A DNA stretch of 60,237 nt, taken from the NCBI RefSeq assembly GCF_000337375.1, contig NZ_AOJG01000009.1, forward strand, positions 106,820-167,056, given 5' to 3'. Position 1 is the stretch's first letter. Every line of letters starts with the position of its first letter. Below the pieces are notes generated by a model. That model was not told where the DNA came from and did no database searches. It saw only the letters and a program-made list of their open reading frames with translations. The position numbers and the translations under genes were made by a program. Shown here piece after piece: positions 1 to 60,237 of this stretch. Source of the DNA: Halorubrum lipolyticum DSM 21995 (lineage in GTDB: Archaea > Halobacteriota > Halobacteria > Halobacteriales > Haloferacaceae).

Positions 1-57
1 CGAGCAGAGAGGGACCTCCGGTCCCTCATGCAGCCGGCGCGCAGCGCCGGCGACGAA

Positions 58-176
58 GCGAGCGACGAGGCTGGGGAGGCGTGAGGCTGTGCGGGGCGGG
101 ACTCAAAGGGGCAGCCGCCTCGCCGGCTGGGGCTTTGGACGTGTTCACCGGAGAGCCGTCGATCACGTATAAATAA
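58..176 (+). repeat. Dispersed intergenic element, copy 1 (full core)
   Basis: Full copy of the repeat family seen again at 10903, 25376, 28952, 29230 and 30527. A conserved left block (58-103) shared with the 28952 copy ends in GGGACTCAAAGGGGCAG. A symmetrical hairpin follows: CAAAG 104-108, GGG 109-111, CAGCCG 112-117, six-base loop, CGGCTG 124-129, GGG 130-132, CTTTG 133-137. After it come the GTGTTCACC box (141-149) and a TATAAATAA tail. Another TATAAATAA follows near 202. It lies beyond the 3' end of the response regulator gene, in the opposite orientation to it. Bases 1-57 hold two small GC hairpins; 211-391 shows nothing I can name. Confidence 0.8.
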
Positions 177-391
177 CCGACAGCAACACCCCTCGATCAC
201 TTATAAATAACCACTCAACCAACTCGCTATACTCACTCCCGCTATCGATCGAGAAGCAATTTTCGACGCCCCTCGTTCCGTACCGCTTTGCATCCGAGGA
301 ATCGGCCTTCGAAAGCGTCGAAACACCCGAATTCCGGAGCCCCTACTCAGTCCTCGCGTCGGTTTTCGGGAGGAGGGACGAGCGCCTGTCG

Positions 392-10902: not shown

Positions 10903-11037
10903 TGGCTCTGTAGTGACCTGCTTCAAATCGCCGGTTGATCGCTTATAGACGGTTAACAGCGGATCGACGAGAACGACCTCCAAAGCCCCAGCTGCGAGGA
11001 CTCGCGGCAGGGCGAGAGCCTCGCGCCCTGTCGGCAC
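10903..11037 (-). repeat. Dispersed intergenic element, copy 2 (right half)
   Basis: Read on the minus strand it carries CTGGGGCTTTGGAGGTCG, a diverged GTTC box and TATAAGCGATC. The GCGAG-rich hairpin arm before the GGGGCTTTGG box is shared with copy 3. The TATAAG end points toward the doxX stop codon, so it is antisense and downstream of doxX. It also lies just upstream of gshA. It lacks the left block with ACTCAAAGGGG. Confidence 0.75.
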
Positions 11038-25375: not shown

Positions 25376-25500
25376 TGGTGACCACTTTTGAGGATCGAGG
25401 CGATCGCTTATAGATAGCCGGCCGGAAATTCTCGACGAACGTCCCCAAAGCCCCAGCCGCGAAGGCTCGCGGCAGGGCGAGAGCGAAGCTCTCGCTTGCA
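25376..25500 (-). repeat. Dispersed intergenic element, copy 3 (right half)
   Basis: On the minus strand it reads GCTGGGGCTTTGGGGACG, a diverged TTCG box, then ATCTATAAGCGATCG. Before the GGGGCTTTGG box is a GCGAG hairpin, CCGCGA-gcct-TCGCGG, shared with copy 2. The TATAAG end faces the stop of the Nudix gene, 48 bases away. Homology with copy 2 continues beyond the TATAAG (AAGCGATC... GGTCAC). Confidence 0.75.
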
Positions 25501-28795: not shown

Positions 28796-28951
28796 GGTGG
28801 TGCGTCGCGGCCCCGCGAAAAGCGCCTTTCGGTCGGACGCGGTGACGCGTGCGCGAGCCAAATGGAGAGAGCGGAAGAGCAACCGAGACTGTCGCAGTGG
28901 CGCGTGCCTGCGAGCGCCCGCAGGGCGCGAGTCAGCACGCGCGAGGGAGTC

Positions 28952-29225
28952 GCTCGCCGGAGGCGAGCGACGAGGCTGGGGAGGTATGAGGTGCTGTGCG
29001 GAGCGGTGCGGGGTGGGACTCAAAGGGGCAGTCGCGATTCCCGCGAGCAACGCGAGCGGGAAGACGGGAGACGAAGTCTCCCGGAAGGACGAAGACGGGC
29101 GACGCTAGGACCGCAGGGAGGGAGCGCTAGCGACCGACTGAGGACCGCAGCGAGCCCATCGAGTCCTCGCGACTGGGGCTTTGGCGGTGTTCACAGCCGG
29201 TCTACTGGTCGCCATTTATAAGTGA
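28952..29225 (+). repeat. Dispersed intergenic element, copy 4 (long form)
   Basis: Shares with copy 1 the block GAGCGACGAGGCTGGGGAGG, then GGGACTCAAAGGGGCAG. The hairpin is CAAAG 29021-29025, GGG, CAGTCGCGA 29029-29037 and TCGCGACTG 29167-29175, GGG, CTTTG 29179-29183. Compared with copy 1 the stem carries T-A for C-G, a covarying change. Between the arms is a 129-base insert with further hairpins, including CGGGAGAC-gaa-GTCTCCCG. A right-end box and TTTATAAG end near 29222. Confidence 0.85.
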
Positions 29226-29229
29226 ACGT

Positions 29230-29299
29230 CTGGGGCCTCGGAGGCGTTCACCGCCGATTTGCTGTCAGCTATTCGGCTTTGCTGAATGCCTTTATAAGT
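29230..29299 (+). repeat. Dispersed intergenic element, copy 4b (right half, variant)
   Basis: Reads CTGGGGCCTCGGAGG, GCGTTCACCGCCGATTTGC, a short insert GGCTTTGCTGAATGC and TTTATAAGTG. It directly follows copy 4 in the same direction. It is the nearest element to the M48 peptidase stop codon, 70 bases away, and antisense to that gene. Confidence 0.65.
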
Positions 29300-60017: not shown

Positions 60018-60221
60018 GATATAAGGATATGATCGGTAGTTGACTATCAAACCGTATCTTAGTAGTAGTGGTTTACAATTAAATGGCTCCGTTGGAATCC
60101 CCGACCGGTGAGAAACCCGCTCCCGTACATGCAGCGCGGACACAACGACGTGAGAGAGTACGGGAGTGAGTATTGCAGATCGGTGACGGCGATAGGGTAT
60201 TTAAGCAACTGTGAGCGACGG

Positions 60222-60237
60222 CGACGATCGTTTATAA
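60222..60237 (-). repeat. Possible partial copy of the dispersed element, cut by the window end
   Basis: The last bases, GACGATCGTTTATAA, match the CGATCG-TTATA edge at the right end of copies 2 and 3 when read on the minus strand. Only the edge is visible. The flanking gene arrangement cannot be judged. Confidence 0.3.

Follow-up and report, generated by a model that had tools for sequence, protein, structure and literature searches.

Background

The nearest described haloarchaeal repeats of the kind considered here are the PATE, SMR and MITE repeats of Haloquadratum walsbyi, which have been described as IS605- or ITR-related, the PATEs being tied to IS605-type transposons (PMC3119063). Here we describe a family of elements found by following up a 60,237-nucleotide stretch of the 3.4 Mb Halorubrum lipolyticum DSM 21995 genome (the window, C9:106820-167056). 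A sequence-only reading of the window had reported a hairpin in two copies of a dispersed repeat, copies 1 and 4, and had taken it for a selected fold, either an RNA or a DNA hairpin recognized by a protein. The reported hairpin is genuine, and is the third helix, P3, of a larger element that has three in all. The variable, compensated arms of this element, together with its nearly unchanging unpaired core, probably point to a structured RNA, or an element acting as a single strand, that has not been described before.

Results and discussion

Two copies of the element in the window

In copy 1, the plus strand carries CAAAG (104-108), GGG (109-111) and CAGCCG (112-117), a loop CCTCGC (118-123), and then CGGCTG (124-129), GGG (130-132) and CTTTG (133-137). 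In copy 4, also on the plus strand, CAAAG (29021-29025) is followed by GGG and CAGTCGCGA (29029-29037), and the 3' half consists of TCGCGACTG (29167-29175), GGG and CTTTG (29179-29183). The shared outer arms CAAAG/CTTTG with GGG/GGG and the C-G to T-A exchange between the two copies, both claimed by the sequence-only reading, are present; the claimed length of the copy 4 inner stem held only in part, as the stem extends to 9 bp. Two occurrences of ACTCAAAGGGGCAG (at most two mismatches) were found against 0.13 expected by chance, and four of CTGGGGCTTTGG (at most one mismatch) against 0.04. Taken on its own, the short hairpin of copy 1 has a folding energy close to that of shuffled sequences (z -0.32), so the evidence for it is comparative; the 291-nucleotide element of copy 4 folds at z -5.4.

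Copy 1 (locus L032) is truncated, as the window begins right after a one-N assembly gap within the element (at C9:106819, immediately left of base 1), and its P1 part lies beyond the window, at C9:106688. What remains on the plus strand is the P2 helix in a branched form with the start of the core block (1..70), the core block GAGGCTGGGGAGGCGTGAGG and spacer (69..100), nearly invariant in our alignment A1, the reported P3 hairpin with its six-base loop (101..137), a shortened form also seen at loci L022 and L023, and a 3' tail (138..240), in which TATAAATA boxes occur along with the outer inverted repeat TATACTCACTCCCGCTATCG. Copy 4 has all three helices on the plus strand: P1 with a tandem G.A loop, followed by GCGAGGGA (28899..28945; covariance model R1 match at C9:135718-135850), P2 formed by GTCGCTCGCC and GGCGAGCGAC (28949..28971), the unpaired core GAGGCTGGGGAGGTATGAGG, a spacer and GGGTGGGACT (28972..29020), P3 with two hairpin modules inserted in its loop (29021..29183), and a 3' tail (29184..29270), in which TTTATAAG is accompanied by the degraded remains of a second 57-bp unit, CTGGGGCCTCGG.

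Elsewhere in the window, two minus-strand remnants retain the right arm without a left arm, one adjoining the DUF371 and NUDIX genes (25445..25456) and the other a GCS2 gene (10980..10991), and a further plus-strand copy, of which the TATA-like box and the outer inverted repeat on the 5' side are present (60158..60237), is cut by the contig end. The neighboring genes are ordinary, encoding a response regulator with HalX, an Obg-like GTPase, an M48 peptidase, and the NUDIX, GCS2 and DUF371 proteins.

Single-N gaps with an identical stretch on either side also occur within elements at L020, L021, L026, L031, L067, L082, L111 and other loci, and many contig ends lie in, or adjoin, elements. Since the elements are repetitive, the assembly breaks there and false doubled arms appear; accordingly, pairs of left arms spaced by about 89 bp were rejected as biology and are assembly overlaps around a single N.

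Anatomy of the element

The anatomy was derived from 104 loci of the H. lipolyticum genome; the copies were collected around arm-pattern matches, so those without good arms are under-sampled. The element is a dispersed, intergenic sequence of about 300 bases with three helices, P1, P2 and P3. On the plus strand, P1 reads GGCGCGYGC-C-NNN-GA, hairpin, GA-NNN-G-CRC-GCGC, with a tandem G.A internal loop. It is followed by GAGGGA and P2, which is hypervariable and in some copies branched, then by GAGGCTGGGGAGGYGTGAGG, a GC-rich spacer, GGGTGGGACT and P3. The last has the form CAAAG-GGG-CAG...CTG-GGG-CTTTG; its inner stem varies in sequence, and its loop often holds an inserted hairpin module. The joining sequences GCGAGGGA, GGCTGGGGAGG..GTGAGG, GGGTGGGACT and (C/G)AAAGGGGC / GGGGCTTT(G/C) are nearly invariant.

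Recurring, ready-made hairpin modules are inserted in the P3 loops of L055, L077, L117, L091, L093 and L342, one example being TTCACGAGAGC..GCTCTCGTGAG beside AATCAGAACGC..GCGTTCTGATG; similar modules are found in another genus. At L057, L061, L067, L074 and L112, the P1 or P2 loops hold perfect palindromes centered on TTATAA or TTTATAAA instead of ordinary hairpins.

Several features are characteristic of Halorubrum copies. A 57-bp unit, consisting of the right arm and TTTATAAG, follows P3 and is often in tandem. A longer outer inverted repeat, GCGGGAGTGGGTATTGCAGA, flanks approximately 30 of 117 Halorubrum arm clusters, mostly between convergent genes (examples are L021, L116, L109 and the window copy at 60158-60237); this repeat could conceivably be a second, younger mobile unit. 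A TATA-like TTATAA lies at a fixed spacing, 19 to 22 nucleotides before P1, in most Halorubrum copies, and haloarchaeal promoter spacing would place the start of a transcript from it inside P1. As the box is present in just one of 85 copies from other genera, we rejected it as the family-wide promoter of the element.

Copy number and phylogenetic distribution

The H. lipolyticum genome contains 85 exact occurrences of the left arm (CAAAGGGGCAGNNG) and 92 of the right arm (CNGCTGGGGCTTTG), versus one and zero for the respective reversed controls. Among 170 genomes of the family scanned, the exact left arm was found in 47 of 52 from Halorubrum and in none of 118 from other genera. When named genomes were scanned with the pattern, the matches came from Halorubrum, from the uncultured archaeon A07HR67 and, by chance, from a Prevotellaceae MAG (L198), which was the sole clearly unrelated organism and was rejected as lacking the element.

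Model R1 was built from alignment A1, whose 42 copies represent many species of Halorubrum. It gave 132 matches in H. lipolyticum (E <= 1e-3), with a single element accounting for more than one match in some cases, and we put the number of elements in this genome at about a hundred. The sequence-only reading had proposed a covariance search of haloarchaea; done with this model, it found diverged relatives in 183 of the 391 Halobacteria genomes searched, belonging to 50 of 86 genera (E <= 0.01); the weakest of these matches may be due to chance. Genomes of other genera have up to 95 matches each, and the distant copies, when read, show core blocks and helices in identical order. The outer closing pair is C-G in Halorubrum and G-C in all 62 distant copies having both arms. 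Outside the order, no genome in a control draw from the phylum (247 genomes) matched.

Plasmid matches are few (Halorubrum, Halobaculum, Halorussus and Haloarcula), and the viruses and phages searched gave none. With Rfam 15, the window at gathering score yielded only a tRNA, a search with copy 4 yielded nothing even with E values of up to 5, and at eight loci no match over an element attained the gathering score of its family. No description was found in the open-access literature, which was searched both for the subject and for the arm sequences themselves; subscription literature was outside this search, and an earlier account is not excluded.

Evidence for a selected fold

The copies in alignment A1 were chosen by their conserved blocks, and the invariance of those blocks in it is therefore partly by construction; the conserved core blocks recur in other genera. 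In A1 the unpaired core is almost invariant and the helices are hypervariable. Under the P1/P2 structure, paired cells make up 97.3% of the total, versus 83.6% after shuffling, and covariation is 0.358 versus 0.127, with slid partners giving 0.056 at most. Covariation of P3 across 65 copies is 0.120 versus 0.046 shuffled, in a test where the outer arms are uninformative, being fixed by the selection pattern. Compensatory pairs are extensive, occurring in 82 copies of the H. lipolyticum genome, in copies of many Halorubrum species and in 57 copies of other genera. An absence of such pairs in other copies, or arms identical by descent and lacking further covariation, would have refuted the sequence-only reading, and neither outcome occurred. 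Its own argument from a single C-G/T-A exchange is insufficient alone, because a hairpin here can also be substituted as a unit or, at times, made perfect by DNA-level events, so that paired changes can arise without selection on the fold.

The imperfect pairs bear on this point. Among distinct P3 stem contexts read on the plus strand, there are 55 G.T and 12 A.C pairs (p 1e-7), or 24 versus 9 when the first position is left out (p 0.014), and the bias persists for either orientation of the neighboring genes. The 57 inner stems from other genera, which have 44 different left arms, contain 657 Watson-Crick, 27 G.T and 9 A.C pairs. No wobble bias is seen at the P1 pair in columns 7/45 (3 UG, 4 CA), and the copies are not independent, so the p values are indicative only. 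A strand-symmetric process would give as many G.T as A.C pairs, and the excess of G.T thus makes one strand appear selected; we consider it likely that the plus strand has been selected to fold as a single strand. The claim of a selected fold is supported in this respect, with RNA and single-stranded DNA still undecided.

Turnover at orthologous sites

At the site upstream of the Obg-like GTPase gene (ychF), an element or remnant is present in about 20 of 30 Halorubrum species and absent from about 10, so a given copy is evidently dispensable. The full copies at this site are all in one orientation and their hairpins differ widely among species; as site and orientation are kept, we conclude that copies are inherited in place while their hairpins get replaced. 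Other orthologous sites show comparable turnover.

Some of these changes are DNA-level events. The P1 internal loops comprise 158 of the GA/GA form versus 17 GA/TC and 8 TC/GA, the latter two being perfected palindromes, and at L018, and at L268 relative to L076, the sequence enclosed by the P3 arms runs in the opposite orientation, possibly as a result of recombination between the arms. Some of the covariation therefore traces to such events and not to compensation one step at a time; the wobble bias, together with the unchanging core, speaks for selection acting as well.

Gene context

Our gene calls rest on a codon-score heuristic and the context counts are approximate. With this caveat, the Halorubrum context avoids promoters: of 104 scored copies in H. 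lipolyticum, 54 lie between convergent genes and 9 between divergent genes, and those between same-strand neighbors show no preference (18 ++ versus 23 --). In other genera same-strand neighbors are favored (31 ++ versus 13 --), there is no enrichment between convergent genes (20 of 85), and copies often begin 8 to 100 nucleotides past the stop of a same-strand gene.

Alternative explanations

One possible alternative is a non-autonomous mobile element, in which one strand, folded as single-stranded DNA, serves a trans-acting transposase as substrate, as for PATE or REP sequences with IS200/IS605 (Y1) enzymes. The high copy number, palindromes, strand-specific folding, intergenic location and sites empty in some species all suit this reading, PATEs are known from a related haloarchaeon (PMC3119063), and the G.T bias fits a single-stranded DNA hairpin as well. 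However, H. lipolyticum, with 132 model matches, has no match to the Y1 transposase family PF01797 (other transposase types were outside the search), and across 51 genomes the Y1 count is uncorrelated with arm copy number (rho 0.12, p 0.42). A Y1 transposase as the present-day driver in this genome was rejected on these grounds. Neither the criterion for REP sequences with RAYTs, a Y1-type RAYT gene in the genome, nor that for PATE or other IS200/IS605-derived elements, a Y1 transposase in the genome, is met, nor is the terminal inverted repeat required of a MITE, the outer repeat being restricted to the minority of arm clusters noted above. No fixed ends or target duplication are visible at filled and empty sites, which are too divergent to show them, and the long conserved core is atypical of such substrates.

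A family of palindromes maintained at the DNA level, with arms kept complementary by unit copying and templated correction and no selection on an RNA or single-stranded DNA fold, would account for the exchange of whole hairpins between copies, the perfecting of GA/GA loops in both directions and the inverted P3 interiors. We regard it as unlikely, as strand-symmetric processes do not predict 55 G.T versus 12 A.C pairs, the invariant unpaired core across species is left unexplained, and the G.A mismatches are retained in most copies. Less plausible still is a gene-end device, that is, a bidirectional transcription terminator or an insulator between genes. It would be supported by the excess of H. 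lipolyticum copies between convergent over divergent genes and by the distant copies shortly past the stop of a same-strand gene, but there is no same-strand preference in Halorubrum, though other genera show some, and no convergent enrichment in distant copies, and avoidance of promoters is expected of any tolerated insertion. Moreover, the arm ends in only three T, unlike the haloarchaeal terminator, which is of the T-stretch type (PMC7237163).

A structured RNA as the best reading

We favor, by a modest margin, an unrecognized, high-copy structured noncoding RNA of Halobacteria as the best reading of these observations; transcription has not been shown. The criterion for such an RNA, conserved secondary structure with compensatory change, is met. 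That the folded molecule is RNA is inferred without transcript data, and we lean only slightly toward it. Weighing against it are the placement of the TATA-like box and its near absence from other genera, the dispensability of single copies, the share of covariation that DNA-level events explain, and the P1 pair that shows no wobble bias. The family consists of dispersed, intergenic three-helix elements across Halobacteria, with a plus strand that is probably selected to fold. Under the RNA reading, the folded strand would be RNA, transcribed as an extension of neighboring genes or, in Halorubrum only, possibly started from the upstream TATA-like box. The unpaired, purine-rich core may be read by a protein or a tertiary contact. 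Copies would spread by an unidentified route and later swap whole hairpins by recombination, and this exchange may diversify the helices while the core is retained. Both the core-binding protein and the exchange of hairpin cassettes are inferences that we put forward only as possibilities. A bolder form of the RNA reading, a class-wide family of large structured RNAs with tens to more than 100 copies per genome, interchangeable helix cassettes and a protein-binding core, falls a little short of even odds in our judgment.

With about 100 intergenic sites in this one genome and a class-wide span, the element would rank among the commonest structured elements of Halobacteria. Its thousands of paired arms form a natural data set on how structure is kept while sequence turns over, and in haloarchaea amenable to genetics it gives a concrete RNA or single-stranded DNA molecule to probe, pull down and delete.

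Comparison with known systems

By description, without sequence comparison, the family is similar to the PATE, SMR and MITE repeats (PMC3119063) in being short, non-coding, high-copy and palindromic, and some of those repeats are likewise heterogeneous. Unlike them, it has a long invariant unpaired core, several covarying helices and a class-wide span, and, unlike the case of PATEs, the H. lipolyticum genome lacks a Y1 enzyme. ROOL, GOLLD and OLE, examples of large structured RNAs (PMC12286853 for this class of RNA), share with it a long fold, strong covariation, a conserved core and no known protein product. These RNAs are present in few copies per genome, whereas the present element has roughly a hundred or more. 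The bacterial repeats REP/BIME with RAYTs (PMC12306157), ERIC and BOX are, by description, similarly intergenic, dispersed and hairpin-forming, and the modular build and tandem units of the present family recall BOX. The bacterial repeats are shorter and more uniform in sequence, in contrast to the present family, whose helices are hypervariable yet strongly compensated and which is recognizable across an entire class.
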